Shown: in pieces, positions 17,446-34,986 of the stretch | Numbering within the stretch: position 1 is the stretch's first letter | Layout: each line of letters starts with the position of its first letter | Assembly (NCBI RefSeq): GCF_902506555.1 | Contig: NZ_LR732707.1 | Span: 1,364,804-1,428,803 of the forward strand | Length of the DNA: 64,000 bases | From: Sphingorhabdus sp. 109 | GTDB taxonomy: Bacteria; Pseudomonadota; Alphaproteobacteria; Sphingomonadales; Sphingomonadaceae | Direction of reading: 5' to 3' | Program-made: the position numbers and the translations under genes | Notes under the pieces: model-generated | Seen by the model: only the letters and a program-made list of their open reading frames with translations | What the model was told of the DNA's origin: nothing | Database searches by the model: none

Positions 17446-19739
17446 GTGGTAACGAACCCCATGGCGAAGCTCTCGGAAAATGCTCCGGCGCATGATGCAG
17501 AACAGCAAATGCGGCTGATTGAACGGCGACTGGCCCGCAGCGAGGCGGCGCGCGCAGAGGCCGAGCAGTTACTGGAATCGAAAAGCCGTTCCCTCACGCA
17601 GGCGCAGGAACAGTTGCGCCAGAAGGAAGTCGAGTTACTCGAACATGTCAACCGGCAGACTCTGTCGCATGTCAGCGCCCAGAATTTGGCCAATGTGGCG
17701 ACTTTTTACGGAGACGAGAACCAGAAATTCATTGGATCGGACAATTTCGCCAGCGTGATCGGTTCGAAAAAGCCGGTCACCAGTTTCATGCAATTTGCCG
17801 CCATGGTGCATCCACACGACAAGGCCAATGCGACGGAAATCCTGATCGCCGCATCCGAGGGGCGGCTGGTGGACGAAAATGTCAGGGCGATTTTCGCTTT
17901 TGCGATGACTATGGCAAGATCCGCTGGCTGCGATGGTCGGTTACACAGCGAAGGTCACCGGACGGTGTCCGCTTCTTCGGCTTTGGCGCCGTTCGCGATA
18001 TCACCAAGGATCGTCAGGCCGAGCGGCAGGAACAGATCTTGCGGAAACTGAGTGAACGCCGGGCGCGGCAGCTGCAGAATATGACCAATGACCTGAAAAT
18101 CGCGCGCGAGGAAGAAGAGCACAAGAGCAAGCAGCTCGCACAACGCCTTGTCGAGATGGAACTGATGGGCTCGGCGCTGGAAGAAGCCAGGGCTGCTGCT
18201 GTGGAAGCAAACAAGTCGAAATCGCGGTTTCTGGCGATGATGAGCCATGATATCCGCACGCCCATGAATGCGGTGCTGGCCACGCTGGAGCTGCTCAGCA
18301 TCACCGACCTGACCCGCGAACAGCTTAGACATGTCGAGCTGGCGCGGGACAGCGGTGACCAGTTGTTGTCCCTGCTGGCCGATATCATAGAATATGCCCG
18401 CGCCGACGGCTGGAAACTCGATTTGCAGATGCGCGAGGTCGCCCTGCCCGATCTGGTGGAAAAGACGGCCGCCACCTGGCAGCCGCTCGCCCGAAAAAAG
18501 AATCTGGAAATCTTCACCAGCCTGCCGGCGGATTGTCCGGAACATATCACGACGGACCCGACAAGGGTGCGGAACATGATCGACAATTTCGTCAGCAATG
18601 CGATCAAATATACCAGCGATGGCCGGATCGAACTGATTGCGGACATCGTGAGCGAAGCCGAAGGAACATTTCTGAAATTTTCCGTGTCGGACGACGGATG
18701 CGGCATCCCGGAGGATGTCCAGGCCGGCCTGTTTGAAGATCTGGACCGCGGCATTGCCAAGGAAAGCGCGATTGAGGGAACCGGCCTTGGGCTGTCGATC
18801 TGCAAACGTATTGTCCAGAAGATGGACGGCACGATCGGCGTGGAGAGCGAGATCGGCTTCGGCAGTGTCTTCTGGTTCATGATCCCTGTCACCATGAGTG
18901 ACGGTTCGGAACTGGCTGCGGAAAAAAGCGAGGCACTTGTCACCCCCAAGTTCCGGATCGATGGCCGGGCACCCAAATTGCTGGTTGCCGAGGACGTAGA
19001 GGCAAACCAGATCGTGATTACCGCGATGCTGGAGAATATGGGTTGTGAGACCACAGTCGTGGATGACGGATCGAAAGTGATGGACGCGCTGGCCCGCGAG
19101 GATTTCGACGGGATATTGATGGATGTCTGGATGCCGATGAATGGCATGGATGCGGCGCGTCTCGTCAGAGCAAACCGCAAATATGCAAAAATCCCGATTT
19201 TCGGTGTGACCGCGTTTGCCGCGGACAGCGAACGCACCGCAATCCTCGCTTCCGGCATGGACGGTGTTATTGCCAAACCGATCAACCTGTCCGGCCTGCA
19301 CTATGTCGTCGGCCAGATTTGCGGGCTGGATATCGAGGAAGGTACGGGCGAGTCGGACCATCAAAAGCGCATTCCCGATTTCGGCGAGGTCGCGTTTCTC
19401 GACCAGACCAAATTTTCCGAACAGATTGATGCCGTGCCGGCAGGACGCCGCGCGGCACTGGTTGATGCGGTAGGCAATGATATCGGGAAATGGTGCGAGA
19501 GGTTCAGCCAGTCCTGGACTTCCCGGGACCAGCAGGGTGTCAACGCAGCCCATCATGCATTGCGTGGCATCTGTACCGGCTTTGGTGCCTATGCCTTGCT
19601 GGAGAAGGTTGATTCCATCCGGCAAAGTGGCAAACTTGGCGCATCCGATGAGCTATTGCCGATCCAGGACATGCTGGATTACACTATCGCGGCCCTTCAC
19701 CGGGCGCAGCTACAGACGGCCGGTGAAGGGACCGATTGA
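17446..19739 (+). pseudogene. Soluble PAS-HK-REC-Hpt hybrid histidine kinase with a one-base frameshift
   Basis: Two frames join into one hybrid kinase of about 764 residues. The first runs from GTG 17446 (AAGGA site 11 bases upstream): a coiled coil, then a PAS-like domain (FYGDENQKFIGSDNFASV). At the T-run 17891-17894 the sense moves to the -1 frame; one extra T restores IFRFCDDYGKIRWLRWS. The second frame continues a coiled coil, the HisKA domain (FLAMMSHDIRTPMN, His at 18246), ATPase boxes (NFVSNAIKYT, DDGCGIPED, GTGLGLSICKR), a REC domain (Asp at 19122) and a C-terminal Hpt domain (AAHHALRGICTGFGAY, His at 19554). No membrane helix is seen. It may be a real mutation, a sequencing error or programmed slippage. 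The downstream part could be translated alone from TTG 18039. It sits at the edge of the exopolysaccharide locus and ends 10 bases from the convergent transferase gene. Confidence 0.85.
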
Positions 19740-19749
19740 CCGGGAAACC

Positions 19750-21210
19750 TCAATAGGCCCCCCTGCCCGTAATTACCGCCGGCACCGTCCGGGTAATCAG
19801 GATCAGGTCGCGCACCAAAGACTGTCTGGAAAGATAGTCAAGATCCATGTCGACTTGCTTTTCAAACGGAATATCCGCACGGCCGGAAACTTGCCAGGTA
19901 CAGGTCAGGCCCGGCTTTCCGGTGAGCCGGCCCCGTTCCTTGTCCTTATAGGCCAACACCTCCTCGGGCAGCGCCGGCCGAGGGCCGACGACCGACATCT
20001 GTCCGGCCAGAATGTTCAGGATTTGCGGCAACTCGTCCAGTGAAGTGCGACGGATCAACTTGCCAATCCGTGTGATCCGCGGATCGCTTTTCATCTTGAA
20101 GCAGACGGAATCGCGTTCATTCTGTTCTGCCAGTTGCGCCTTTCGAGATTCTGCATCCTTGTACATCGAGCGGAATTTCCAAATCTGGAACGGCTTGCCG
20201 TCTGCACCGATCCGGGTCTGCCGGAAAAATGGCGATCCCCGGTCTTCCAGGGTGATCAACAGACATATAGCGGCGGCCAATGGTCCGAGCAGCAATAGCG
20301 CGACCAGTGCGATCGACAGATCCAGCGTGCGTTTTGAAGCGGCCGCATAGCGCTCGGCATGGCCGCGGGCTACAAAGGCGTTGGCGATGGCGTGGCCGAT
20401 AAAACGCAAATTGCCACCCAGATAGCGACCCGCCAGCCGACGCGGTTCCATGGCCAGGCGCCAGCACCATTCCAGACCCAGGTCCCGTACCGGCGCCGGA
20501 GCACGCGGAATGCTGTGCGAATAATAGTCGAACAGACCACCGACACCCATCACTACCGGTACCGTGATCCGGTCGCGATATCTGGCTATCCATTTTTCCT
20601 GCACGGGGACGCCCATGCCAATCATCAGGATCGACGCGCCGGATCTGTTGATCTGGTCGATGATCTGTTCGTCCGTTCCGTGGTCAAAATAACCTTGCTG
20701 GGTGCCCGCAAAGCGAAGGCCCGGATATCGGTTGCGCATATTTTTCGCGGCTGCGGCGGCAATGCCGGGTTTGCCGCCGAGCAGGAAAATGCTCTGCCCG
20801 GCCTCCGCTGCCTTTTCACAAATATGCGGAAAAAGATCCGTACCATTAAGATTGTCGACGGGCTTTGTCCCCGCCAGCCTGCCTGCCAGCCGGAGACCGG
20901 AGCCATCGGGAAGCAGCAGATCGGCCGATTGCAGGTCGGCCGCATATTGTCTGTCCCGTTTTGCAATGTTGATGCAGTGGGCGTTTATGAAATAAATTGC
21001 GTTGCGTTCGCCTTGCGACGCCGCCCGGACGATTTTTTCGGCAATCTCCGGCAAACAGCCATTGGCCAGGTCCAGCCCGAACAAAGAAATGGCATATTCA
21101 TCATAAGTCGAAACAGCCAATTCGCTGATATGATCACGGCCTATAATAAGCGGCGAAATGCGGCGGCTGTCATTGGCGGAAAAACTGGCAGCAGATTGAT
21201 ACATACTCAT
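19750..21210 (-). CDS. Fused GT26 (WecG/TagA/CpsF) glycosyltransferase and phosphoglycosyl transferase
   Basis: A bifunctional enzyme of about 486 residues for starting polysaccharide repeat units. The first half (residues about 35-265) is a WecG/TagA/CpsF glycosyltransferase: LLLPDGSGLRLAGRLAG, LNGTDLFP, FLLGGKPG and GVGGLFDYYS. The second half is a bacterial sugar transferase that loads a sugar phosphate on undecaprenyl phosphate: KRTLDLSIALVAL membrane helix, QIWKFRSMYKDAE, the catalytic Asp-Glu in SLDELPQ, VVGPRPALPEE and GKPGLTCTWQVSGR. I chose the ATG at 21210 (GGAG site 8 bases upstream) because a sigma-54 promoter at 21242-21257 lies between it and the upstream alternative at 21282. 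Likely the first two sugar steps in one protein. Confidence 0.92.
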   Translation of the reverse strand: MSMYQSAASFSANDSRRISPLIIGRDHISELAVSTYDEYAISLFGLDLANGCLPEIAEKIVRAASQGERNAIYFINAHCINIAKRDRQYAADLQSADLLLPDGSGLRLAGRLAGTKPVDNLNGTDLFPHICEKAAEAGQSIFLLGGKPGIAAAAAKNMRNRYPGLRFAGTQQGYFDHGTDEQIIDQINRSGASILMIGMGVPVQEKWIARYRDRITVPVVMGVGGLFDYYSHSIPRAPAPVRDLGLEWCWRLAMEPRRLAGRYLGGNLRFIGHAIANAFVARGHAERYAAASKRTLDLSIALVALLLLGPLAAAICLLITLEDRGSPFFRQTRIGADGKPFQIWKFRSMYKDAESRKAQLAEQNERDSVCFKMKSDPRITRIGKLIRRTSLDELPQILNILAGQMSVVGPRPALPEEVLAYKDKERGRLTGKPGLTCTWQVSGRADIPFEKQVDMDLDYLSRQSLVRDLILITRTVPAVITGRGAY

Positions 21211-21241
21211 TGTGGGACTCCATTTCATTTGCCCCCATCTT

Positions 21242-21257
21242 CGCACTTCGCGTGCCA
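21242..21257 (-). promoter_or_regulatory. Sigma-54 (-24/-12) promoter for the fused transferase gene
   Basis: Minus strand TGGCACG-N4-GTGCG fits the sigma-54 consensus TGGCACG-N4-TTGCW with GG and GC at the correct spacing. The transcript would start near 21231, about 20 bases before the ATG at 21210. Confidence 0.75.
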
Positions 21258-21332
21258 GAATATGATTATTGTTATATTTCAAACAGCTATTTGGTTAATC
21301 GGCCGTTCGCTACTAATCAATCTTGTTCAAAA

Positions 21333-21357
21333 TGCGAAAATTTTCGCAAAATGCGAA
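21333..21357. promoter_or_regulatory. Candidate enhancer (UAS) A: TGCGAA/TTCGCA repeats
   Basis: The 16-bp perfect palindrome TGCGAAAATTTTCGCA (21333-21348) overlaps a second inverted repeat, TTCGCA-AAA-TGCGAA (21343-21357). The latter's centre is about 93 bp from the -24 element of the leftward sigma-54 promoter and about 94 bp from the rightward one, a typical enhancer distance. A near-identical element lies at 30005-30019. I infer it binds the Fis-type domain of the activator at 30674. Confidence 0.65.
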
Positions 21358-21443: not shown

Positions 21444-21459
21444 TGGCACGGCAATTGAA
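21444..21459 (+). promoter_or_regulatory. Sigma-54 (-24/-12) promoter for the wzx-glycosyltransferase operon
   Basis: TGGCACG-N4-TTGAA matches the sigma-54 consensus except for the C of the -12 GC. The transcript would start near 21470, 23 bases upstream of the flippase ATG at 21493. Confidence 0.75.
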
Positions 21460-21492: not shown

Positions 21493-22758
21493 ATGATCGC
21501 CGCACCATCAGATAAGCAGCATAGCAGCAAGCGCTCCATCATAGAGGGTCTCTTGGCCTATGGATCGGCAGAACTGGTCAATCGCATTGTCCGGATACTG
21601 GTTGTCGTCATCATCGCACGCCAGCTGGTTCCCGAACTGGTCGGTGTCGCGGCACTGACCCTCAGCCTTTTCGAACTGACCCGGGTGATTGCCAATATCG
21701 GTGTGGGCCAGAAAATCATCGCGGCTCCGGACCAGACCCTCGAAGCGGTCTGCAATTCGGCCAGACGCATATTCTGGTTCTGGTGCTCGATGGTGGCCTG
21801 CATTCAGCTGGTTGTTGCCGTGGTGCTTTTCACTTTCTTTCAACAGGGCCTGGCCGCACAGATGCTGGCCGTCCTGTGCGGCGTCTATTTTTTCATGCCC
21901 GGCGGTCTGGTCCAGTGCTTTCGTCTGATGCGTGCCAGAAAAATGGCGACTGTCGCGAAAATCGGCGCGGTCCAGACAATTTCCGACCATTTGCTCACCG
22001 GCGCCCTGATACTCGCCTGGGCCAACCCTTGGGCAATCATATTGCCAAAGCTGCTCACAGCCCCGCTATGGCTGGTCATGATGCGACGGGCAGAGGACTG
22101 GTCCGTCAACCCGGTCCATGGTTACGCCAACCGGTCTGAGATGATCAATTTCGGCGCGGCCGTGCTGGCGACCGATATAATGCTCGCCCTGCGCAACAAT
22201 CTCGACAAGCTGATCATCAGCGCGCTGCTCGGCGTTTCCGCTCTTGGCAGCTATTATTTTGCCTTCAACGCCGGCATCGGCATTATCGGCACGCTGGCCA
22301 CCGCATTTGGCACAGTGATCTACCCTTATTTGTGCAACCAGAAATCGCTGGCTGATGCCGGCAGCACCTTGCGTTTCATTCTCGGCGCCGGACTGATCAT
22401 CTTCAGCGGCCTGTCACTCGCACAATATATTCTGGCACCCATTTATATACCGCTGATTTTTGGAGAAAAATGGCTCCAGGCCATACCACTGATCCAGATC
22501 CTGTCACTCGCCGGCATCCCGCTGCTGCTCGGAGCCATCGCATCCGCCTATCTGCGGGCATCGGGCCGAGCGGCTCTCGATGCATGGCTCGGCCTTGCGG
22601 TCTGTGTCGCGGCGCTCTCGGCGATGTTTGTCGGCGCTCATTTCGGGCTGCAGCAAGCCGCAGCAGGCTGGGTGATCGGCACAGCCTCCGTCATCTCGGC
22701 ATATTCCCTCGTCATCATGACCAAATTTTTTAAAACCGAACAGGAAATTTCCCTATGA
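21493..22758 (+). CDS. Wzx-type polysaccharide flippase (oligosaccharide flippase family)
   Basis: A 421-residue integral membrane protein of the MOP superfamily that would flip undecaprenyl-linked repeat units to the periplasm. It has about 12 hydrophobic segments, with the family's N-terminal pattern GLLAYGSAELVNRIVRILVV and RNNLDKLIISALLGVSALGSYYFAFN in the middle. The open frame extends 378 codons upstream, but that part is antisense to the fused transferase gene. The start at 21493 sits 23 bases after the predicted sigma-54 start point and gives a normal N-terminus. It is the first gene of a four-gene operon; its stop overlaps the next ATG (ATGA). Confidence 0.9.
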   Translation: MIAAPSDKQHSSKRSIIEGLLAYGSAELVNRIVRILVVVIIARQLVPELVGVAALTLSLFELTRVIANIGVGQKIIAAPDQTLEAVCNSARRIFWFWCSMVACIQLVVAVVLFTFFQQGLAAQMLAVLCGVYFFMPGGLVQCFRLMRARKMATVAKIGAVQTISDHLLTGALILAWANPWAIILPKLLTAPLWLVMMRRAEDWSVNPVHGYANRSEMINFGAAVLATDIMLALRNNLDKLIISALLGVSALGSYYFAFNAGIGIIGTLATAFGTVIYPYLCNQKSLADAGSTLRFILGAGLIIFSGLSLAQYILAPIYIPLIFGEKWLQAIPLIQILSLAGIPLLLGAIASAYLRASGRAALDAWLGLAVCVAALSAMFVGAHFGLQQAAAGWVIGTASVISAYSLVIMTKFFKTEQEISL

Positions 22759-23684
22759 ACCATCCTCATTTTTCCGTGATCATGCCGGTCTATAACGCCG
22801 CATCGCATCTTTATGCGACGATAGAATCTGTTCTGACGCAGACGGACGGTGACCTTGAACTTATCCTGGTCGACGACGGCTCAACCGACGAAAGCCTGTC
22901 GATCATGTTGTCGCTGGCCGGCGAGGACGACCGGATAAAGCTGCTTGCACAATCCAACAAGGGTGTGTCAGCCGCTCGCAATCTCGGCCTTGCTCAGGCT
23001 CGGGGCAAGCTTGTTGCCTTCATTGACTCGGATGATCTGTGGAAAGCCGAGAAGCTCGAGATGCATGGATATTTTCATGCCAAGCACCCCCAGGTCGCTG
23101 CAAGCTACGCCCAGATCGCCTTCATCGATCATGACGCAAAACCGGATGATAAAGCGAAGACCTATTCCACGGTCACAACCGCTCCATTGTCTGTGGAGCA
23201 GGTGATTGCGGAAAACCCGACCTGCACCATGTCGAACCTGGTGGTGGCAAAAGCGATCATTGACGCCGTCGGCGGCTTTCGATCGGAAATGTCCTATGCC
23301 GAAGACCAGGAATGGATCGCCCGCATCGTCTCGCATGGTCATGAAGTCTGCGGACTGGATCATCATCTCGTTGATTATCGTATGAGCCCCAATGGCCTGT
23401 CGGTCGATCTGCCGGCCATGTACGCCGGCTGGCGTTCGCTGGCGAGCCAATATGCAGATAGCGGCACCGTGCTTGCCGCCGAAGCGATTTATTGCCGCTA
23501 CCTGTCCCGTCGGGCGCTGCGGGCGGGTGCCCCGGCGAGGGTCGCCCTGTCCTACGCAATGCAGGGGATAAGGTCGGACCATCTGGCGTTTCTGAAAGAT
23601 GCCCGGCGCGGCTGGCTAACCCTGATCAGTGCGGTTGCTGCCCTGCTGATCCCGCGCTCCGCCAGAATTCACTTCTTTGCCTGA
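22755..23684 (+). CDS. Glycosyltransferase family 2
   Basis: A 309-residue GT-A fold glycosyltransferase. N-terminal FSVIMPVYNAASHLYATIESVL, nucleotide-sugar residues in LVDDGSTDES, the DxD-like FIDSDDLW and the late EDQEW catalytic region are all present. It is translationally coupled to the flippase gene. It would add one sugar to the lipid-linked repeat unit on the cytoplasmic face; donor and linkage are unknown. Confidence 0.92.
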   Translation: MNHPHFSVIMPVYNAASHLYATIESVLTQTDGDLELILVDDGSTDESLSIMLSLAGEDDRIKLLAQSNKGVSAARNLGLAQARGKLVAFIDSDDLWKAEKLEMHGYFHAKHPQVAASYAQIAFIDHDAKPDDKAKTYSTVTTAPLSVEQVIAENPTCTMSNLVVAKAIIDAVGGFRSEMSYAEDQEWIARIVSHGHEVCGLDHHLVDYRMSPNGLSVDLPAMYAGWRSLASQYADSGTVLAAEAIYCRYLSRRALRAGAPARVALSYAMQGIRSDHLAFLKDARRGWLTLISAVAALLIPRSARIHFFA

Positions 23685-23711
23685 ACCCTATTCTTGAAAA
23701 AGGACAATCCT

Positions 23712-24704
23712 ATGACCAAACCATCCATCTCGATCATCATGCCCGTTTACAATGTCCAGCGCTACGTCGCCGCGGCGATTGAATCCGTGCTTGCCCAGAC
23801 ATTTGGCGATTTCGAACTTGTCATTGTCGATGACGGCGGTTCAGACAGGAGCGTGGAGATTTGCGCATCTTATGCGGATCCGCGGATCCGGATCATATCC
23901 CAGAGAAACCGCGGTCTTGCCGGCGCACGCAACAGCGGCATATCGGCCGCGCGCGGCGAATATATCGCGCTGCTCGATGCCGATGACAGCTGGATTCCGG
24001 AAAAGCTCGCGCTGCACAAAATCCATCTGGACAACAACCCTTATGTAGGCGTCAGTTACTGCGGTTCGCGGTTCATGGATGCAGAAGGAACGCTGCTCCG
24101 TCAAGCACAGCGTCCGAAGCTGGAAAATATTACCGCCCGGGATATCCTGACCCGCAATCCCATCGGCAACGGATCGGCTCCGGTAATCCGAAAGTCGGCT
24201 CTGGCCACTATCGCGTTCGAACATCCTGACGAGCGCGGACGCGAATGTTTCTTCGACGAAGGGTTTCGCCAGTCCGAAGATATCGAACTGTGGATCCGCA
24301 TGGCGCTGACCGGCGGGTTCCGTTTTGAAGGGATTGACGGGTTGCTCACCCATTATCGGATCGTCTCCGGTGGCCTGTCGGCCAACATCGCTGCACAATA
24401 TGACAGCTGGAACCGGGTGATGGTGAAGACCATGGCCCATGCCCCGGAATTTGTCGCCCGGTACGGAGACGAGGCGCGGGCATTTCAGCTCCGCTATCTG
24501 GCCCGTCGTGCGGTCCAGATGGGTGATGGAGCCTTCGCTCTCATATTGTTGAAAGAAGCTTTCGCCGTCTCGTTCAAGCCGCTTGTCAGAGAGCCCGTGA
24601 AGTCGGCATTCACTTTTGTCGCCGCCGCTGCCGCGCGCTATCTGCCGAATGATTTCGTGAACAGGCTCGCGGACGGCTGGACCGGCGGGAGGGTTCTGAG
24701 ATGA
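23712..24704 (+). CDS. Glycosyltransferase family 2
   Basis: A second GT2 enzyme, 330 residues, clearly paralogous to its upstream neighbour: ISIIMPVYNVQRYVAAAIESVL, LVIVDDGGSDRS, LLDADDSWIPEK and SEDIELWIRM. The ATG at 23712 follows an AAGGA site; the TTG at 23694 is less likely. Its end overlaps the next gene by ATGA. Two tandem GT2 copies suggest successive sugar additions or a duplication. Confidence 0.92.
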   Translation: MTKPSISIIMPVYNVQRYVAAAIESVLAQTFGDFELVIVDDGGSDRSVEICASYADPRIRIISQRNRGLAGARNSGISAARGEYIALLDADDSWIPEKLALHKIHLDNNPYVGVSYCGSRFMDAEGTLLRQAQRPKLENITARDILTRNPIGNGSAPVIRKSALATIAFEHPDERGRECFFDEGFRQSEDIELWIRMALTGGFRFEGIDGLLTHYRIVSGGLSANIAAQYDSWNRVMVKTMAHAPEFVARYGDEARAFQLRYLARRAVQMGDGAFALILLKEAFAVSFKPLVREPVKSAFTFVAAAAARYLPNDFVNRLADGWTGGRVLR

Positions 24705-25726
24705 CCAGTTTGCCGAAAATCGTTCATCTGCTCGACGACCTGTCTATCGGAGGCGTGACGCGCAATCTCGCGCTGTTTCAGCACCCTGCCCTGCAACGCC
24801 ATTATGAATGCTCGAGCGAAGAGGTTCATCCCGACTGGAGCATTGCGCCAAAAATGAATGCTGCGGTGATTGTCGTTCATTTCTCGATGAGTTGGAAGAC
24901 CCTGCCCTTTCTCTACTCGCTCGCGGCGCGCAATGCACAGGCCAGGCTGGTGCTGGTCGAGCACAGCTATTCGCGGGAATGGGAAAATCTTTATGTCGCG
25001 GATCAGACCCGTTTCCGATCGATGCTGAAGCTGGCCCACAGGATGTTCGATCGGGTGATTTGCGTTTCTGACGCGCAAGCCGGCTGGCTTGAGGAATCGA
25101 CCGGGCTCCGGGCCCCCAAGCGTCAGACCATATATCCCTGGAGCGACATGCAGGGCCTGGCGCAGCTGCCACGGCCGCATTTTTCGTTGAAAGCACCGCT
25201 AATCATCGGTGCCTATGGCCGGTTTGTCGAGGACAAGGGCTTTGAACGGCTGATCGGCGCGATCAATGCGCTGGGCGACCAGCAAGCGGTCGGCCTGTTG
25301 CTCGGTGGTTTTGGACCCGACGAGGACAAGCTGAGACGTCTGGCCGGATCAAATTCCAACATATCGTTTTATGGGCAGATAGACCGGGTCGACGACTTTC
25401 TCGCCAAATGCGACCTGGTTGCGGTCCCGTCGAAATTCGAAACCTATGGCCTGGTAGCCACCGAAGCACGCATGGCGGCCCGCCCGATCCTTGTATCCGG
25501 CGTTGGCGGGCTGTCGGAACAGGTCGGCGAGGCCGGCATGGTCACCGACTTCGGCGACGAGAAAGCTACGGTCAAACTGCTGGAAAACATCCGTCATCTA
25601 CCGCTGGTCAAAATGTCGGTCTCGGGCCGCGACGCCTGCCTCGATATCACCGAACATCGCATCGAATCGTGGTTACAGCTGCTCGGGGATATCGCGTCCA
25701 GCCGGACCATGCCCCGCGCAGCCTAA
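24701..25726 (+). CDS. Glycosyltransferase family 4
   Basis: A 341-residue GT-B fold enzyme. The C-terminal half shows the family features: IIGAYGRFVEDKGFERLI (donor-binding start), GGFGPDEDKLRRLA, VAVPSKFETYGLVATEA (the E-x7-E motif region) and GVGGLSEQV. The N-terminal acceptor domain opens with KIVHLLDDLSIGGVTRNLA. Last gene of the rightward polysaccharide operon, followed by a terminator at 25766. Confidence 0.9.
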   Translation: MTSLPKIVHLLDDLSIGGVTRNLALFQHPALQRHYECSSEEVHPDWSIAPKMNAAVIVVHFSMSWKTLPFLYSLAARNAQARLVLVEHSYSREWENLYVADQTRFRSMLKLAHRMFDRVICVSDAQAGWLEESTGLRAPKRQTIYPWSDMQGLAQLPRPHFSLKAPLIIGAYGRFVEDKGFERLIGAINALGDQQAVGLLLGGFGPDEDKLRRLAGSNSNISFYGQIDRVDDFLAKCDLVAVPSKFETYGLVATEARMAARPILVSGVGGLSEQVGEAGMVTDFGDEKATVKLLENIRHLPLVKMSVSGRDACLDITEHRIESWLQLLGDIASSRTMPRAA

Positions 25727-26035: not shown

Positions 26036-27316
26036 TCAGCTCGCGGTTCTGCGTTGTGTTGCAGCCTGAAGGGCCATGCCGATCAGCAGCAGCGCCGGCC
26101 AGTAAAGATAGGCCAGCGACTCCAGATTTTCGCCAAAACTGTACATGAACAGCAGCAAGGTCATGGCAAATCCCGTTTGGCCCAGACGGGAAAGCAGGGC
26201 CGAGCGCAATAGCAGAGCAAGAGTGATGGTCAGCGGCACCGCGAGCGCGAGCAGGCCGAGCAGACCCTTTACGAACAACAGCCCATACCAGCTGTGGTGG
26301 CTGCCGATCGGCATATATTCGACCAGATGGGGGCCCCGTTCGACAACGCCGTGGCCAAACCAAAAAGCTTCCGCCTGCCAGCGTTCCACGGCAATCCGGC
26401 CCAGCGTTTCCCGGACTCTGGTGGAGTCCGCGCGCGCGCCGGAAAATTCGGATTTGGCCATATCCAGCGCGTCAAGAATATCCAGTGCGAACCAGCCCGA
26501 CAGCAGAACGATCGGCAATATGAGAAACCACAGGAGAGGACGGGTCGCCTGGCTGAAAAGCAGCGGTACGGGGGCGATGATGACCAGTCCGACAAGCGCC
26601 AGCCGCGACTGGGATAACAGAATCATGGCCAGAGCCGCGGCAATGCCCCAGTTTCTCCAGCGACGATCCTGCTCCTGACAGGCACAGATCAGATAGACCA
26701 GTCCTACCATCCCCGCCGCTGGCGACCAGGGTGCAAAAAATTGCCAGCGGGGCGCGCCCGATCCGGGCTCCAGCGTATAGAGAATGGTGGCAAAATATTC
26801 CGGTCCGGATCCGCCGATAATCTGAAGCGGCGAAACCCACAAGGTCGCCGGCAATCCGGCAAAGGGCGCGACAAGAACGAACGGCAGCAGCATGATCGTA
26901 TATTTGCCGGTCCGGCAAATGGCACGATAGACAATTTCCCGCCTGATCGGCAGCACCGCACCGGCAAAGATGAACAATGCAATGAGCAGCCATCCCTTGG
27001 CCCAGCCTATGGAAGATTTGATGGTTGCACCGGTCCCGAGGCTGAAATTGAGATGCCCGGCGATCAATATCACCAGCATGACCGTCATTGCGACAAGCCA
27101 GACAGATATTGGCCAGCGCGGCATCTGCAGACGCTTGGACTCGGGCAAGACTGGACCGATATAGTAGAAATATAGCGCCTGCAGGCAAAGCACACAGCCG
27201 AGCACCGGCCCCGCAATATAGAGCCCGCCTACCAGCCATAGAAGCCATGTCGCCAATATGGTGTAATAGACTAGATATTCGGAGCTATTCTGCGGATGAT
27301 CGGCTGTCTGAACCAT
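26036..27316 (-). CDS. O-antigen/exopolysaccharide polymerase-like membrane protein (Wzy)
   Basis: A 426-residue protein with about 11-12 hydrophobic helices. The best family mark is the periplasmic loop and following helix around residues 320-355: GHGVVERGPHLVEYMPIGSHHSWYGLLFVKGLLG, read in pieces, which is the Wzy_C/O-antigen ligase signature region with conserved His and Gly. It would polymerise repeat units in the periplasm. Its first 46 bases overlap the Wzz-like gene. Ligase activity cannot be excluded, but the setting between Wzx and Wzz favours a polymerase. Confidence 0.83.
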   Translation of the reverse strand: MVQTADHPQNSSEYLVYYTILATWLLWLVGGLYIAGPVLGCVLCLQALYFYYIGPVLPESKRLQMPRWPISVWLVAMTVMLVILIAGHLNFSLGTGATIKSSIGWAKGWLLIALFIFAGAVLPIRREIVYRAICRTGKYTIMLLPFVLVAPFAGLPATLWVSPLQIIGGSGPEYFATILYTLEPGSGAPRWQFFAPWSPAAGMVGLVYLICACQEQDRRWRNWGIAAALAMILLSQSRLALVGLVIIAPVPLLFSQATRPLLWFLILPIVLLSGWFALDILDALDMAKSEFSGARADSTRVRETLGRIAVERWQAEAFWFGHGVVERGPHLVEYMPIGSHHSWYGLLFVKGLLGLLALAVPLTITLALLLRSALLSRLGQTGFAMTLLLFMYSFGENLESLAYLYWPALLLIGMALQAATQRRTAS

Positions 27317-28683
27317 AGCAATGCCAGTCCTACAAGAATGATGATAGTCGCGCCTGTCGCGCCAGCCAGAGCCAGCAGGACCGAGGGGCTCGACGGCGAT
27401 AGCGGCAAGGAAGGTTGCTCGAGTGTCTGGACCAGCGGGTAAGATGCAAAGGGATCCTGCTTGTTGGTGTCAACCCGCGCCAGCGCCGAGGAAAAAACGG
27501 CCTCTGCCACGCGGTGGTCCCGCACAAGATCCGCCAGTTGCGAAGCCTGTTTCACCAGTTCACCGCTTTTCAGCGACTCATTGGAAATATCCTTGCGGAT
27601 TTCAGCAAGGCCAGCCTGTGCGCCTGCGCTCTGCGAATTCGCGACGATCATGCCCTGCATCATGTTGGCTCTGCCGTCCGCGACCGCGATATCGACATTT
27701 TTCAGAATTGCATTGGCGCCCAGTCCGGTCAGTTCGCGACCGCGACGCACCAGCGCATTTTTCAGCAGGTCCCGTTCGGATCTGGCCTGCACCATATCAC
27801 CATGATTGTCGCCAAGCGTCGCTTCCTTTTCCCGGGTATCGACTTCCACTTTGGCATATTGATCGGCCAGCTGCTGAAACACCGGGTCCGAACGCAGCCG
27901 CAGCGCGCTATTGGCCCCGTTCACGCTCTTGCCGAGTATCGAAGCAAAACGGCCTGATTCCGCGGATTTCTGGCGCAATATTATGCGGGCTTCCCGCTCC
28001 TGCTGGCGCAGCGCATCCATATTGGCAATCCGGGTATTGAACTGGTCCAGGGAAACCAGCCCGGTTTTCGCCTGAAAATCAAGTAGCGCCTGTTGCGTCG
28101 TCCGGACTTTCTTTTCCAGCACGACGAGGTTTTTATTGTCGGAATTTTCCCGCATTTCCGCTTCGTTTTTGCGCAGTTCATCGAGCTGGTTGAGAAATGT
28201 GTCTTTCAGGGCAAGCGCGCGTTTGTTCGCCTGTTCGCCGCTCGCGCCCACCACTTCCACCTGGATCAAGTTGGTCTGGTCGATCAGCTTCACATTGGGC
28301 GCGGGAAACCGGTCCATCTCGTCACCGGATTTCTCGGCGCTCTGCCGCAAGGTTTTATCTGTCATCAACAGACGCTTGTAATTCTCGGTCGGGCTTAGGG
28401 TCGCGCTGGAAAAGGCCGATGAAACGGATGATTGCGCCTGTCCGATACTTTCCACGTTCAGAGACCCGCCAGCACCCGAACCCGGCAGGATCAGGGTGAA
28501 CTTGCTGCGATACTGATCGGGAGCCAGCGCCAGAAACAGACCTGTCAGAACCCAGATTACCACGATCCAGACAGCCGCGGTCTTCAGATAGCGTTTGTGG
28601 CGCAGGCGCATCGGCCGGCGGTTCTTCAAAGCGTGCCAGAGCCGTGTGTGCAGGCCCGGCTGCTCGATGAATTCCTGTTTCAT
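27271..28683 (-). CDS. Polysaccharide co-polymerase (Wzz/GumC-like) without kinase domain
   Basis: A 470-residue inner-membrane protein with two helices, residues about 33-53 (AAVWIVVIWVLTGLFLALAP) and about 435-458, flanking a long periplasmic coiled-coil region. The Wzz N-domain begins with YRSKFTLILPGSG. The C-terminus PSSPSVLLALAGA...LWF is typical. There is no C-terminal Walker-type tyrosine kinase as in Wzc/GumC fusions, and no separate BY-kinase is seen in the window. It would set chain length with Wzy and contact Wza. Two bases separate it from the Wza gene. Confidence 0.88.
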   Translation of the reverse strand: MKQEFIEQPGLHTRLWHALKNRRPMRLRHKRYLKTAAVWIVVIWVLTGLFLALAPDQYRSKFTLILPGSGAGGSLNVESIGQAQSSVSSAFSSATLSPTENYKRLLMTDKTLRQSAEKSGDEMDRFPAPNVKLIDQTNLIQVEVVGASGEQANKRALALKDTFLNQLDELRKNEAEMRENSDNKNLVVLEKKVRTTQQALLDFQAKTGLVSLDQFNTRIANMDALRQQEREARIILRQKSAESGRFASILGKSVNGANSALRLRSDPVFQQLADQYAKVEVDTREKEATLGDNHGDMVQARSERDLLKNALVRRGRELTGLGANAILKNVDIAVADGRANMMQGMIVANSQSAGAQAGLAEIRKDISNESLKSGELVKQASQLADLVRDHRVAEAVFSSALARVDTNKQDPFASYPLVQTLEQPSLPLSPSSPSVLLALAGATGATIIILVGLALLWFRQPIIRRIAPNI

Positions 28684-28685
28684 GA

Positions 28686-29870
28686 TCAGTCCAGATTCTT
28701 CAGCAGAAAATAGGGGGATGCGGTTTCGCCGACCAGGCTGATCACATCGCGCATATTCATCGCGAAACTGTCATAGCAGGCAAGGCTGTCCCCCGGCATG
28801 AGATAAGGATCCCTGCCGTCACGATCGTCCTGACGGACCAGTTTTTCAACCGAGCGCTGGATCACCACCGATTGGCCGCTGATCGGGTTGCGGGACATCA
28901 GCACTACTTTTCGCGCCGCGTTCATCGCCGATCCGCCAACACAATTGGCGGCCACCATCGCCTGGGACAACCGTGTACCATATGGCAGGTTGGTCGCGTC
29001 GCGGTTTATCGCGGACGAGGCGTTGTTGCTGGCTGGCCGAGACAGGTTGGACATATAGACCCTGATCCCCGGAGCCGTGATTTGCGATGGTTTGACCAGA
29101 TCATCCTGAAAACAGGCCCGCGATCCGACAATCACCCGGTCGTTAGCCGTCAGCGCGATATCCTCAATTGCGCTGCCATAGATCGCGCCATTCAAATCTA
29201 TCTTCGTCCATTGCTTTCCCCGAACAAGATATACAGCGGAGAGATCGGCATCGGGCCGGACACCCCCGGCGGCGCGCAATGTGGTCGTCAATGACCGGTT
29301 CGCATTGCTGTCGCCGGAATCGCTATTGCTCAGATTGACACCGCGGGTTTCCGGATTGCGTTCGCCCACCCGGATCATTCCCGGCTCGAACACCGCGCCG
29401 CTGACGGCAACGCTAATTCCGCCCAGTTCGAGCAGTTGCAGCCGGACGCTGTTCCGCAAGCCCCGGATGAGCCCCGCCTCGACCAGTTCGCTTGCAATGG
29501 CCCTTTCCGCCTCGACGATGGACCGTCCGGCCAATAGGATTGTTACACGACCGTCCAGCGTGATCGTGCCGTTCGCGGCCAGCACATAGGTTCGTGACAG
29601 GCTGTCCTCATCGCCGGCCACTTTCAAACGGACCCGATCGCCGGATGCCAGAAGATCCGGAGTGCTGGCAAACATATGCGATGCGACCTGGCCGCCCGCA
29701 AGCAGATCAGCCGGAGTCATCGTCGCGTGGCATGAGCGAAAGCCCTCGCCGGTCGCTTCGACCTGCTGCGGCGCATATTGGCTGCCAATGGCATTCGCCG
29801 GCCGTTCCATGGTCGCGCAGCCACCGAGAAGCGATGCCGTGATCAGGATTGCGATAGTCTTGTGGGTCAT
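28686..29870 (-). CDS. Outer-membrane polysaccharide export lipoprotein (Wza-like)
   Basis: A 394-residue export lipoprotein with lipobox LLGGC at residue about 18. The Poly_export domain follows (LASGDRVRLKVAGDEDSLSRTYVLAANGTITLD), then SLBB-like segments (ISVAVSGAVFEPGMIRVGE; YMSNLSRPASNN) and a C-terminal region with LMPGDSLACYDS. It would form the outer-membrane channel for the polysaccharide. First gene of the leftward Wza-Wzz-Wzy operon, with a perfect sigma-54 promoter 35-50 bases upstream. Confidence 0.9.
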   Translation of the reverse strand: MTHKTIAILITASLLGGCATMERPANAIGSQYAPQQVEATGEGFRSCHATMTPADLLAGGQVASHMFASTPDLLASGDRVRLKVAGDEDSLSRTYVLAANGTITLDGRVTILLAGRSIVEAERAIASELVEAGLIRGLRNSVRLQLLELGGISVAVSGAVFEPGMIRVGERNPETRGVNLSNSDSGDSNANRSLTTTLRAAGGVRPDADLSAVYLVRGKQWTKIDLNGAIYGSAIEDIALTANDRVIVGSRACFQDDLVKPSQITAPGIRVYMSNLSRPASNNASSAINRDATNLPYGTRLSQAMVAANCVGGSAMNAARKVVLMSRNPISGQSVVIQRSVEKLVRQDDRDGRDPYLMPGDSLACYDSFAMNMRDVISLVGETASPYFLLKNLD

Positions 29871-29904: not shown

Positions 29905-29920
29905 TGCAATCGCCGTGCCA
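29905..29920 (-). promoter_or_regulatory. Sigma-54 (-24/-12) promoter for wza-wzz-wzy
   Basis: Minus strand TGGCACG-N4-TTGCA is a perfect consensus match. The start point would be near 29893, 23 bases upstream of the Wza ATG at 29870. Confidence 0.88.
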
Positions 29921-30004
29921 GTAGCTGTTTTGCAGGACTTACGATGGTTAACATTCCGATAATGCGAATTATTCTGGTCGGTATTTGCAATTTGCAAAGG
30001 TTTT

Positions 30005-30019
30005 ATCGCATATTGCGAA
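30005..30019. promoter_or_regulatory. Candidate enhancer (UAS) B
   Basis: ATCGCA-TAT-TGCGAA matches UAS A (TTCGCA-N3-TGCGAA) with one mismatch and the same 3-base spacer. It lies about 92 bp from the leftward and about 70 bp from the rightward sigma-54 promoter. Further half-sites are TGCGAA at 29963 and TTCGCA at 30073. Confidence 0.6.
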
Positions 30020-30081
30020 TAGATCTTGTTGCAAAATGCAGGTCTTGAGCAAGACTTCGCGGAATTCAGCCATTCGCATTT

Positions 30082-30097
30082 TGGCATGGAAGATGCT
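30082..30097 (+). promoter_or_regulatory. Sigma-54 (-24/-12) promoter for the H-NOX-activator operon
   Basis: TGGCATG-N4-ATGCT keeps the GG and GC dinucleotides at correct spacing. The start point would be near 30109, 30 bases before the H-NOX ATG at 30139. The activator would thus control its own operon. Confidence 0.7.
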
Positions 30098-30138: not shown

Positions 30139-30669
30139 ATGAAGGGTATAATTTTTACGGAATTGGTTCGGTTCATGGAACAGGTCCAGTCACCGGAATT
30201 CGCCGATCAGGTAATCTCCGGAGCCGCGCTTCCCAATGATGGTGCGTTTACCTCGATCGGCAATTATCCGGCAGATTATGCCCTCGCCATGGTTGGCCAG
30301 GCGTCCGAACAATCCGGTATCGAAGCCACCGAGCTCTGCCGTCTGTTCGGCAAATATCTCTATGATCGATTCAACATCTTATACCCGCATATCATGGAAT
30401 CCTACAAGTCGGCCGAAGCACTGTTGACCCATGTCGGCAGCCATATTCATACCGAAGTCTGTGTGCTCTACCCCGATGCGCGGCCTCCCCAGGTCACGGC
30501 GGACGTACAGGAAGGCCAGACGGTCATTCGCTACCAGTCGCATCGCCCCATGGCCGCGATCGCCCATGGACTGGTCCAGGGATGCATGGAACATTATGAT
30601 GACCGGCGTTCACTCGACTGGGAATGTGCCGTTGATGGGAAGTCGGCCATTTTCACGATAAAGGGATAA
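30139..30669 (+). CDS. H-NOX heme nitric-oxide-binding sensor protein
   Basis: A 176-residue stand-alone H-NOX (HNOB) protein, a soluble heme sensor for NO in bacteria. The N-terminus MKGIIFTELVRFMEQ is the family hallmark. The proximal heme ligand should be His104 in SHIHTEVCVLYPDARPP. The heme-propionate motif YxSxR is intact as Tyr132-Gln-Ser134-His-Arg136. No distal-pocket Tyr for O2 binding is obvious, so NO selectivity is likely. Four bases separate it from the sigma-54 activator gene. H-NOX proteins usually act on a partner histidine kinase or cyclic-di-GMP enzyme; none lies beside it, but the soluble hybrid kinase at 17446 is a candidate. The sigma-54 promoter at 30082 drives it. Confidence 0.93.
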   Translation: MKGIIFTELVRFMEQVQSPEFADQVISGAALPNDGAFTSIGNYPADYALAMVGQASEQSGIEATELCRLFGKYLYDRFNILYPHIMESYKSAEALLTHVGSHIHTEVCVLYPDARPPQVTADVQEGQTVIRYQSHRPMAAIAHGLVQGCMEHYDDRRSLDWECAVDGKSAIFTIKG

Positions 30670-30673
30670 ATTT

Positions 30674-32113
30674 GTGTCCAGTCACAAGATATTGATCATC
30701 GAAGACATCGCGTCGCTGTCGATCGCCTATGCGGGCCATCTGGAAACGGCGGGATTCCATTGCGTCATTGTCGACAATCTTGCCGATGCCAATATCGAAC
30801 TGGGTCGCGAAGATTCCGGCTTTTCAGCAGTCTTGCTGGATTTGCAATTGCCCGACGGCAACGGTCTGGACTGGCTCGAGAATAACGGGGCTATCCTGTC
30901 GGAAGTCTCGGTGATCGTCGCCACGGCGGACGGTTCGATCAACCGGGCCATCGATGCGATGCGTCTCGGCGCCTATGATTTCATGGTCAAGCCGCTCTCC
31001 CCCACCCGTCTGGTAACGGTCATGAAAGGCGCTGTCGAAGTCACAAAATCGGTTCGTACCGATGAGGATAAGGCGCCGGAGAACGGTTCGGGAGCCACCG
31101 ACTTTGCAGGTTTTATTGGCGCCAGCCCGCCCATGCAGGAAGTCTATCGCCAGATTAAGAATGTCGCCAATTCAAAGGCTACGGTGTTCATTACCGGCGA
31201 AAGTGGCACCGGCAAGGAAGTGTGCGCCGACGCGATCCACAAGGCGGGACCAAGAGCAAAAAAACCCTTTGTCGCGATAAATTGCGGTGCGATCCCCGAG
31301 GATCTTCTGGAATCAGAACTTTTCGGTCATTTGAAAGGCTCTTTTACCGGCGCGATCACGGATCGGGTTGGCGCGGTGCAGGCCGCACACGGTGGCACAT
31401 TGTTTCTCGACGAGATTTGCGAAATGCAGTTGAAGCTGCAGGTCAAGCTGCTGCGCTTCCTTCAGACGGGTACGGTTCAGAGAGTGGGCGCAACCCAGGC
31501 CGAGGATGTAGATGTGCGCATCATCTGCGCGACTAACCGCAATCCGGCGCGGGAAGTCGAACAGGGGCGCTTCCGGGAAGATCTCTACTATCGGCTCGCC
31601 GTAGTTCCGATCGGCCTTCCCCCGCTGCGGGAAAGAGGCAGCGATATCACATTGATCGCCAATTCCTTCCTGATGCGATTTGCAGAAGAGGAAGGGAAGA
31701 AATTCCTGCCGCTGAGCGCGAGCCTGGCAGAAAGCTTCGAGCGCCACAACTGGCCCGGCAATGTCCGCGAGTTACAGAATCTGATGCGCCGGGCGGCAGT
31801 CATGTTTCCCGGCCCGCATCTGGACTCGAGCCTGCTGCCGGAATTTGTCGACCAGACCGCGCCGGTGCCCGAACGCCCCTCTTTAGCGCCGGAGCCGGCA
31901 ATCGCGCGGGCAGCGTCTATCGATCCGGAACCGTTCGACGGGTTGAGCAAACTGGATGGCATGACATTGGACCAGATCGAGCGACTGGTCGTCGAACGAG
32001 CGGTTTGCAGATGCGATGGCAGCCTGACCAAAGCGGCGAGACAACTGGGCGTAAGCCCGTCGACGCTCTACCGGAAACGCGAAAAGTGGGATATGGCTGC
32101 GTCGGAAGCCTAA
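30674..32113 (+). CDS. Sigma-54-dependent response regulator (REC-AAA-Fis; NtrC/LuxO class)
   Basis: A 479-residue enhancer-binding protein. REC domain: IIED acidic pocket, phospho-Asp56 in LLDLQLPDGNG, VKPLSP. AAA+ domain: Walker A GESGTGKEV, the sigma-54 contact loop as GSFTGA instead of GAFTGA, Walker B GGTLFLDEI, R-finger region REDLYYRLAVV. The C-terminal Fis helix-turn-helix is DGSLTKAARQLGVSPSTLYRK. The start is GTG 30674 with AAGGGA seven bases upstream. It is co-transcribed with H-NOX. I infer it activates the four sigma-54 promoters around the exopolysaccharide genes, including its own. Its cognate kinase is not in the operon. Confidence 0.95.
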   Translation: MSSHKILIIEDIASLSIAYAGHLETAGFHCVIVDNLADANIELGREDSGFSAVLLDLQLPDGNGLDWLENNGAILSEVSVIVATADGSINRAIDAMRLGAYDFMVKPLSPTRLVTVMKGAVEVTKSVRTDEDKAPENGSGATDFAGFIGASPPMQEVYRQIKNVANSKATVFITGESGTGKEVCADAIHKAGPRAKKPFVAINCGAIPEDLLESELFGHLKGSFTGAITDRVGAVQAAHGGTLFLDEICEMQLKLQVKLLRFLQTGTVQRVGATQAEDVDVRIICATNRNPAREVEQGRFREDLYYRLAVVPIGLPPLRERGSDITLIANSFLMRFAEEEGKKFLPLSASLAESFERHNWPGNVRELQNLMRRAAVMFPGPHLDSSLLPEFVDQTAPVPERPSLAPEPAIARAASIDPEPFDGLSKLDGMTLDQIERLVVERAVCRCDGSLTKAARQLGVSPSTLYRKREKWDMAASEA

Positions 32114-32747: not shown

Positions 32748-34085
32748 TCAGGCACTCCCTTCCGGTTTGATCTCGAACAACGCTCCCGGTCCGGCATCCC
32801 GGCAGACTATGATCAGCCCGTTCCGTTCGGCCAGCGCCTGTGAAAGTGCGAGACCGAGGCCGTGCCCCTGCGCCCCGTTGGTATCGATACGAACGAAACG
32901 CTCGAAAATCTTCTCGCGCATATTCTCCGGAACACCGGGACCATTGTCCCGCACAGTGATAACCGGCCCCGGTTGCAGGACAAGTTCGACCTCCCCGCCT
33001 TTGGGCGTATATTTCAGGGCATTGTCGAGCAGATTAGACAGAATTCGCTGGATATGGGCGGGATTGGCCATCATCTTGACCCCGGGCGCAATATCGGTGC
33101 CAAATTTTATTTCCAGATCCTCGGCGCTTTCGGCGAACAGTTCGGTGATTTCGGCTGCGATTTTCGAGATGTCGCACTCCGATAATCCGCTACGGTCCCC
33201 AATTTGAGCGCGACTCGAAGCTATGTCGAGCAGCGAATCCAGCATGGCGATAATATCGCGAATATCCTGCCGCGCCCGTCCGAGCGCTTCGCTGTGCAGC
33301 GGGTCCGTGCTCTGGCCGATGGCCGTGACCAGACGGTTGTCCAGATGCATCAGCGGCGTCCGCAATTCGTGGGCAGTGTGATCCGAAATATCCCGGTGCG
33401 CGGAAATCAGCGACGCAACACGTTCGATCATGGCATTGCCATGCTCCGATAACTGGTCCAGTTCGTCTCCCCGCCAGTCGACCGGGATGGTTGCGGCCAG
33501 ATTGCCGCTGCCGATTTCGCGAAATGCATCATTCATGCTGTCAAGCCGGGTCCTGAGCCGGCGGGTTGCATAATGGCCGATCATGCTGAAGATCAGCACC
33601 AGCAGAACCCCGGCGACGAGAAAGGCGGTTCTGATCCGCGCCAGCAAGGCTGAACGAGCCAACGTGTCGCGCCCGACCAGCAGTTTCAGGTCAGGATTCA
33701 GCTGCGTGGCACGCCCGTAGACCTGCGTTCCGTCCGCCAGCCGGAAAAACCCTGCTTCGGAATTTTCCGACGACAGTTCCGGCCAGGAGTGTAGATTGCC
33801 AATGATTGCTCGCCCGCTTGGCGACGCGAGCAGATAATAGCGCTTGTCGTCAGGCGATTGCAATGCCAGCCGGTCCGAAATCCGCTGGCTCAGTTCGCTG
33901 CCGCCCCCGGTGATGTAAATATCGGCAAGACCGGCAATATCCGTATCGACGCTGCGCGCCATCTGCTCGCGGAATTCGCTTCGTACGATCCATTCCGTCA
34001 TCGCGAACAGGGCTGCGGAAGACAATATCGACACGATGATGACGACCAGACTCAATCGACCGAACAAGGATGACAGTAATTTCAT
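32748..34085 (-). CDS. Membrane sensor histidine kinase
   Basis: A kinase of about 445 residues. Two membrane helices (residues about 10-30 and about 165-187) flank a periplasmic domain of about 130 residues. A HAMP domain follows (MNDAFREIGSGNLAATIPVDWRGDELDQL). HisKA has DHTAHELRTPL. The ATPase shows N-box LSNLLDNALKYT, G1 VRDNGPGVPE and G2 GAQGHGLGLALSQAL. The ATG at 34085 lies two bases after the upstream regulator's stop; the longer frame overlaps that gene. It is the partner of the OmpR-type regulator at 34088. Confidence 0.93.
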   Translation of the reverse strand: MKLLSSLFGRLSLVVIIVSILSSAALFAMTEWIVRSEFREQMARSVDTDIAGLADIYITGGGSELSQRISDRLALQSPDDKRYYLLASPSGRAIIGNLHSWPELSSENSEAGFFRLADGTQVYGRATQLNPDLKLLVGRDTLARSALLARIRTAFLVAGVLLVLIFSMIGHYATRRLRTRLDSMNDAFREIGSGNLAATIPVDWRGDELDQLSEHGNAMIERVASLISAHRDISDHTAHELRTPLMHLDNRLVTAIGQSTDPLHSEALGRARQDIRDIIAMLDSLLDIASSRAQIGDRSGLSECDISKIAAEITELFAESAEDLEIKFGTDIAPGVKMMANPAHIQRILSNLLDNALKYTPKGGEVELVLQPGPVITVRDNGPGVPENMREKIFERFVRIDTNGAQGHGLGLALSQALAERNGLIIVCRDAGPGALFEIKPEGSA

Positions 34086-34087
34086 GA

Positions 34088-34771: not shown

Positions 34772-34842
34772 GAAATTGGCTCATCTTCAGATATGATTGA
34801 TTCATGGCTAGACCCATAGCATCTTCAGCTCAAGATGGAGCA

Positions 34843-34860
34843 GTGACAAATGCTGTTAGA
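34843..34860 (-). promoter_or_regulatory. Operator-like element 1 (regulator operon / CHAT gene)
   Basis: Minus strand TCTAACAGCATTTGTCAC differs at only two of 18 bases from the element at 38943. The second half-site 21 bases on is weak. It is 72 bp upstream of the regulator start and 127 bp upstream of the CHAT start. Confidence 0.55.
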
Positions 34861-34986
34861 AAATGCCAACCAACAGTTTGCAAACATGCGTTTTCTTTCA
34901 TAGAATTGGCGCGGACGCTTACCGGTTTCGACTTTTGCCAGCAATGGCCAGGCGATAATCAGCATTGTTGGAAGAGGTTGCAGAAA

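Follow-up and report, generated by a model that had tools for sequence, protein, structure and literature searches.

An H-NOX gene and a sigma-54 activator gene beside exopolysaccharide genes

The stretch of DNA analysed here comprises 64,000 nt of the genome of Sphingorhabdus sp. 109 (3.62 Mb in five contigs). It is referred to below as the window, and all positions are given relative to its full length. It contains an exopolysaccharide locus in which a gene for an H-NOX protein, a heme nitric oxide (NO)-binding sensor, is followed by a gene for a sigma-54 activator, while a hybrid kinase is encoded at the far end. The parts of the locus, their conservation and co-occurrence, and the promoter sites and enhancer boxes read from the sequence suggest that it is probably a largely self-contained gas-gated phosphorelay controlling its own exopolysaccharide genes.

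The H-NOX gene (30139..30669, plus strand) encodes 176 amino acids and gives the only HNOB match in the host genome (Pfam HNOB, 98.1 bits against a cut-off of 25.5). The protein contains the proximal histidine, His104, and the sequence YQSHR at residues 132-136, which corresponds to the YxSxR motif. In 16 aligned homologues His104, Pro117, Tyr132, and Ser134 never vary, and Arg136 hardly does. An earlier note on this DNA had described an intact H-NOX with these motifs, and both the motifs and the coordinates were verified. The protein is predicted to bind heme and NO. The choice of ligand is not readable with certainty from a sequence, and the activator and its polysaccharide regulon could be real while the sensor responds to something else, for instance oxygen or the redox state of the heme. 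This is rather improbable, however, as the heme-contact residues are conserved and all H-NOX proteins characterised up to 2019 are reported to regulate their partners upon NO binding (PMC6759604).

The activator gene (30674..32113, plus strand) starts with a GTG codon at 30674, and the H-NOX stop codon lies four bases earlier; the spacing suggests that the two genes share a transcript. The 479-amino acid product has matches to Response_reg, Sigma54_activat, AAA lid, and HTH_8, all over the Pfam cut-offs, and thus displays the REC-AAA-Fis architecture given in the earlier note, whose description of an activator four bases past H-NOX and adjoining Wza/Wzz/Wzy genes proved accurate in spacing, domains, and neighbours. 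The motifs DLQLP (at 56), GESGTGKE, and GSFTGA are present. The receiver aspartate, the Walker A lysine, the Walker B DE, and G[AS]FTGA are found in 55/55 aligned activator rows (some rows being one gene taken from two sources), most of which end with an S[PA]STxYRK recognition stretch. When it comes to the closest relatives, the top NCBIfam model is LuxO (NF041946) at 529.9 bits, which misses the equivalog cut-off of 800, and the closest solved structure is that of LuxO (5ep0; 409 bits over query residues 2-385). By its sequence the activator is LuxO/SypG-like, though its score falls short of what curated LuxO membership requires. The PEP-CTERM response regulator (TIGR02915) is likewise a sigma-54 response regulator with a link to polysaccharide genes; this identity was rejected for the activator, which scores 392 bits against a cut-off of 502.6.

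Wza, Wzz, and Wzy genes follow in this order on the minus strand, and the genes on the two sides of the 268-bp gap between H-NOX and Wza are divergent. The Wza-like polysaccharide export protein (28686..29870) matches Poly_export with 28.6 bits (cut-off 28). The Wzz-like chain-length protein (27271..28683) has no Pfam match in the domain scan and reaches the EpsF and ChnLen NCBIfam models only far under their cut-offs, while the Wzy-like polymerase (26036..27316) matches Wzy_C with 33.8 bits (cut-off 31.7). Farther out, on the plus strand, are found a Wzx-like flippase (21493..22758; Polysacc_synt_3, 87.0 bits; start picked by eye), two family 2 glycosyltransferases (22755..23684 and 23694..24704; Glycos_transf_2, 109.6 and 121.7 bits), and a group 1 glycosyltransferase (24701..25726; Glyco_trans_1_4, 70.0 bits). 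A gene on the minus strand (19750..21282, first ATG at 21228) encodes a fusion of a WecG/TagA domain with a polyprenyl sugar transferase (Glyco_tran_WecG and Bac_transf).

A hybrid kinase with the coil of H-NOX partners

The hybrid kinase is encoded beside the WecG gene at 17446-19739, in two overlapping open frames on the plus strand. The N-terminal half (17446..18051; the frame shifts after about 17886) contains a coil of the kind found in H-NOX partners and a PAS-like region that was identified by eye and from weak matches in relatives. The C-terminal half (18039..19739) holds HisKA, HATPase, and receiver domains found by Pfam, and an HPt-like end recognised by an aligned histidine motif.

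A coil profile was built from eight sphingomonad coils and compared with 53 more distant H-NOX loci. In 48 of these the matching protein is encoded no more than 300 bp from H-NOX (E < 1e-3), and in 50 there is a match somewhere in the locus. Among open reading frames (ORFs) with a kinase core, 43/48 adjoining H-NOX are coil-positive, vs. 2/9 elsewhere. The host genome contains a single coil match at E ≤ 1, the window kinase itself. Since this kinase is the sole coil match in the genome and the coil is found beside H-NOX in distant loci, it is likely to be the H-NOX partner and the missing link between sensor and activator, and is a candidate for the HqsK/HahK type because of the coil that it shares with proteins next to H-NOX. 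It lies about 10 kb from H-NOX in the window and is thus not adjacent to it, while the corresponding genes are adjacent in some relatives (L046, L065, and L072). A kinase-like match adjoins WecG in all 22 relatives for which the WecG side was retrieved. In one locus (L041, 990-2525) H-NOX adjoins a GGDEF-EAL protein whose N-terminal coil is that of the kinases; the coil thus seems to be a general marker of H-NOX partners.

An OmpR-type pair at 32748-34771 was also weighed as H-NOX partner and set aside; the NCBIfam models that fit it best are those of a heavy-metal sensor and a heavy-metal regulator, and neither cut-off is reached. Beside this pair the window encodes a TPR-CHAT protein (34804-37884; CHAT, 166.5 bits). 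The window also encodes a 1234-amino acid protein that by eye looks secreted and contains repeated stretches (39042-42746), and next to it a TPR protein resembling outer-membrane proteins, also by eye (42776-44101).

Conservation of the locus and its sigma-54 sites

The H-NOX loci of 46 relatives, one per genome, were compared. An activator match lies just downstream of H-NOX in 28 of them, including one (G211) where both genes are in pieces, and 23 of the 28 also have Wza divergent upstream. One locus has a kinase between H-NOX and activator (G014), one contains remnants only (G130), and one (L074) combines H-NOX with a kinase-like match and has no polysaccharide locus of the window type. H-NOX stands without activator or Wza matches in 13. 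In the remaining two (G236 and G020), which count in favour of the proposed relay, H-NOX and kinase are found together at the WecG end and the activator at the Wza end.

Of at least 544 confirmed candidates in a scan of named genomes, which overlaps with this set, the best 80 were evaluated. Twenty-seven top loci stand out, 24 from genomes with sphingomonad names and three with names referring to alphaproteobacteria only. The activator is located beside H-NOX in 26 of them, and in the other one the contig ends. Altericroceibacterium indicum, Allopontixanthobacter confluentis, Aurantiacibacter marinus, and Erythrobacter litoralis are examples of such activator/H-NOX loci. The synteny of H-NOX, activator, and Wza in sphingomonads to which the earlier note had pointed is present in both sets, in 23/46 and 20/27 loci, respectively. 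Among the remaining 53 of the best 80, an activator-like gene lies less than 2 kb away in three (L140, L167, and L142, in the last case on the opposite strand). L140 and L167 are from Bacteroidota metagenome-assembled genomes; in both, the gene of an NtrC/LuxO-like regulator immediately precedes H-NOX, and that of a kinase lies on its downstream side.

Co-occurrence was assessed in 298 genomes of the family, using thresholds of E ≤ 1e-110 for the activator and E ≤ 1e-6 for the coil. HNOB is present in 47 of the genomes. It is found in 31/32 genomes with the activator and 32/32 with the coil, and all three elements occur together in 30. The exception (G204) has kept the polysaccharide genes and the activator, and has neither HNOB nor a coil match, nor a kinase-like match beside WecG. 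Another genome with the activator (G082) has no coil match; its assembly is 66% complete. Two coil genomes do not reach the activator threshold: G125, where the coil is part of a GGDEF-EAL protein, and G130, with its remnants.

The LuxO enhancer motif is TTGCAWWWTGCAA (PMC10162802). An exact copy lies between Wza and H-NOX (29985..29997), followed by a second putative box (30006..30018) fitting the relaxed motif TYGCAWWWTGCRA and a third (30029..30041) with one mismatch, so that the starts are spaced 21 and 23 bp apart. These boxes are flanked by a perfect sigma-54 promoter (-24/-12) of the Wza-Wzz-Wzy operon (29905..29920, minus strand) and a putative sigma-54 promoter of the H-NOX-activator operon (30082..30097, plus strand; two mismatches). 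The second divergent intergenic region, between WecG and Wzx, carries a putative box of the relaxed type (21344..21356), a sigma-54 promoter of the Wzx-glycosyltransferase operon (21444..21459, plus strand; one mismatch) about 34 bp ahead of the likely Wzx start at 21493, and a putative one of the WecG/sugar-transferase gene (21242..21257, minus strand; two mismatches), which has counterparts in several relatives. The host genome encodes one RpoN.

These sites were sought in 24 Wza/H-NOX intergenic regions, from 23 relatives and the window, with 100 dinucleotide shuffles as control. Allowing one mismatch, the Wza-side sigma-54 site is found in 24/24 (shuffle mean 0.07) and the H-NOX-side site in 16/24 (0.06); at up to three mismatches, a looser criterion that is uncontrolled, the latter is found in all 24, 48-75 nt before the start. 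There are 36 LuxO-type boxes (at most one mismatch) in 19 of the 24 regions (0.39), and relaxed boxes (two mismatches) are mostly spaced 22-23 bp. In the 24 loci 67/73 sigma-54 sites and 54/57 boxes fall within the two divergent intergenic regions (about 17.4 kb of 470,634 bp), a split that is only descriptive because the bounds of the second region were set after the matches had been seen, in L055 by hand. The relaxed motif TYGCAWWWTGCRA exceeds chance in the window (3 vs. 0.1 expected), and three of its four places in the host genome are at this locus. Perfect sigma-54 sites are found three times in the genome, including 29905..29920; the other two, near 1,469,468 and 1,471,879 of contig 2, are close to another activator and may be flagellar.

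In one relative of the same genus (G243) a gene for a PAP2 phosphatase (58.3 bits) lies downstream of the activator (L058, 11878-12588), with a perfect LuxO-type box upstream, at about 12763. A second (G153) has the same gene (92% identical; L059, 7537-8238) and a sigma-54 site at a similar distance from H-NOX. No match to this gene was found in the window or in the G203 locus. It is possibly an extra member of the regulon, involved in lipid-carrier recycling.

That H-NOX should have clustered with the polysaccharide genes by chance, with no functional tie to them, is very improbable. In 14/46 relatives no activator or Wza accompanies H-NOX in the 20 kb retrieved, which speaks for such a reading, but the synteny is conserved across diverged genera, promoter footprints are present, and the co-occurrence is near perfect.

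A probable gas-gated phosphorelay and its relation to known systems

The hybrid kinase, with its coil, PAS-like, HisKA, ATPase, receiver, and HPt regions, appears by eye to be soluble. Phosphate would pass within it from histidine to aspartate to histidine, and from there to the receiver aspartate of the LuxO/SypG-like activator. The phosphorylated activator would then bind the TTGCAWWWTGCAA-type boxes in both divergent intergenic regions and activate sigma-54 RNA polymerase at the Wza-Wzz-Wzy, WecG/sugar-transferase, and Wzx-glycosyltransferase operons, as well as at its own H-NOX-activator operon. H-NOX is predicted to contact the kinase through the N-terminal coil, and when bound to NO it would inhibit the kinase and thereby turn the polysaccharide genes off. 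The sign of the effect is taken by analogy from Vibrio, where NO acts in this way through HqsK and HnoX-HahK. Since the operon of H-NOX and activator would be switched on by the activator itself, the circuit would provide positive feedback with a built-in NO brake. The earlier note had proposed that NO sensing is wired directly to polysaccharide transcription. The sigma-54 tie is upheld by synteny and promoter sites, while "directly" is not supported, as a kinase/HPt step probably lies between.

Several observations weigh against this mechanism. The H-NOX-side sigma-54 site of the window is weak, with its two mismatches, and more than one mismatch is found there in 8/24 loci. No box within one mismatch was detected in 5 of the 24 Wza/H-NOX intergenic regions, and the WecG/Wzx region carries a box in 12/23 and a sigma-54 site in 19/23 loci. 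Loose patterns do not exceed chance in the 64-kb window (sigma-54, 16 vs. 12.3; TTGCANNNTGCAA, 4 vs. 2.8), and the argument is therefore carried by position and conservation. The co-occurrence counts are uncorrected for shared ancestry. The host genome contains seven strong sigma-54 activator domains and three weak matches, which leaves six strong ones besides that of the window activator. No Pfam Hpt match at E ≤ 0.01 was found in the window-type kinases, where the HPt assignment follows from the aligned histidine motif. The ATPase motifs are absent from 19 of 30 coil proteins, and in those loci H-NOX cannot work through inhibition of that protein's own ATPase. Lastly, the frame of the window kinase is broken, and an in-frame stop interrupts the copy in G203 of the same genus (L096, 4870-7227), so that, barring errors in the sequences, these strains may have an interrupted relay.

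The last point raises the question of whether the circuit is decaying in this strain, with the kinase as a pseudogene and the activator freed from NO control. Besides the broken frame and the in-frame stop, such decay is visible in relatives: in G211 (L076) H-NOX and activator are each split into two pieces, and in G130 (L075) Wza, kinase, and activator are remnants, so that decay seems to affect the module as a whole. However, apart from the frame change both kinase halves of the window are open, with the phosphorelay residues present, and a sequencing or assembly error is possible. The same-genus G243 and G153 carry an intact kinase ORF of 757 residues. Decay in this strain must be taken seriously, but appears on the whole unlikely.

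The coil proteins without ATPase motifs suggest another way in which the relay might operate. Thirty coil proteins were compared, 29 from relatives and that of the window, the C-terminal halves being used for the window and L096. Eleven of the proteins retain the ATPase motifs, and in 19 these are missing or lost (L057, L061, L070, L075, L079, L080, L082-L085, L088-L092, L094, L095, L097, and L098). The DHp histidine is kept in 30/30, the receiver aspartate and lysine in 29/30, and the HPt histidine in 27/30. The receiver is missed in the remnant L075, and the HPt histidine in L075, L046, and L072; in the last two a piece matching HPt is found on the following, separate ORF. A second ORF with a kinase histidine box adjoins the ATPase-less protein in 16 of the 19 loci, and 12 of these ORFs exceed 900 amino acids. 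Four such neighbouring kinases were domain-scanned, and all contain HisKA, HATPase, and PAS, while one has MASE1 and CHASE as well.

The coil proteins could in general be His-Asp-His scaffolds fed by a separate kinase, and H-NOX would then gate a relay hub, tuning transfer or phosphatase flow. The loss of the ATPase motifs with most phosphorelay residues kept, and the adjoining second kinase, both favour such a hub. On the other hand, the window type and its nearest relatives (11/30) retain the ATPase motifs, no second kinase-like match adjoins in 9/10 window-type relatives, and no second kinase was seen in 3/19 ATPase-less loci (L089, L092, and L094). A hub is consequently a tenable reading, though not the favoured one. 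It may tentatively be proposed that in many sphingomonads NO and H-NOX gate the flow of phosphate from a separate kinase via an ATPase-less hub to the LuxO-like activator, and that the cells make polysaccharide only if they receive a further signal while no NO is around. If true, H-NOX would be acting on a transfer scaffold, and not on a kinase or cyclase.

The proposed phosphorelay ending at the window activator, with NO inhibiting the hybrid kinase, is of a known kind, because its logic is that of HnoX-HahK-SypF/LuxU-SypG in Vibrio fischeri. In V. fischeri NO and HnoX control HahK, which acts through SypF and LuxU on SypG, the sigma-54 activator of the syp genes (PMC12369376, PMC10162802, PMC8941931). 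HnoX inhibits HahK and biofilm formation (PMC12369376), and the SypG sites at qrr1 overlap the LuxO motif TTGCAWWWTGCAA (PMC12369376, PMC10162802). Judging by its genes, the sphingomonad locus would have the same elements: an NO/HnoX-controlled kinase, an HPt relay, a sigma-54 activator, and polysaccharide genes. However, in V. fischeri hnoX and hahK make up an operon and other kinases also use the relay, while here H-NOX apparently forms an operon with the activator, the kinase has its own HPt-like end, and all parts are found in one locus. The remark in the earlier note that it knew of no such system described must be modified accordingly: the HnoX-to-SypG path is known, although in that path it is the kinase, not the activator, whose gene shares the hnoX operon.

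Similarities are also found to the H-NOX-HqsK-LuxU-LuxO path of Vibrio harveyi and Vibrio parahaemolyticus, which has a hybrid kinase, an HPt step, a LuxO-type activator, and the same motif (PMC3759921, PMC6759604, PMC10162802). HqsK acts as a kinase without NO and as a phosphatase with NO-bound H-NOX (PMC6759604). That path, however, leads into quorum sensing via small RNAs, and its HPt protein is separate; a Qrr-like small RNA was sought in the window, where none of the Rfam families scored up to its gathering threshold. In the Hno network of Shewanella oneidensis an H-NOX kinase likewise signals to a response regulator that is a transcription factor, with feedback on the hno genes, but HnoC is a repressor that is relieved by phosphorylation (PMC8738867). 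The scv locus of V. parahaemolyticus, with ScvE, is another polysaccharide locus under a sigma-54 response regulator. It differs in having a Syp-like gene set, and the alphaproteobacterial genera named are Elstera and Terasakiella (PMC8941931); the terms "H-NOX" and "Sphingo" are absent from the main text of that paper. No description of a sphingomonad version of the H-NOX/sigma-54/exopolysaccharide arrangement was found in the open-access literature searched. What is new is the whole relay within one conserved sphingomonad locus, and the H-NOX partners in relatives that are without ATPase motifs yet have phosphorelay residues.

Many bacteria build up or disperse biofilms in response to NO, a widespread signal. 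The ATPase-less partners offer a direct test case for H-NOX gating phosphotransfer via a protein without a kinase domain. In the sphingomonads the sensor, relay, activator, boxes, and target promoters are found in one conserved locus, with very few other boxes in the genome. While in Vibrio the route from NO to the polysaccharide genes is intertwined with quorum sensing and involves several kinases, such a single-locus path would make the whole NO route testable in one environmental organism.

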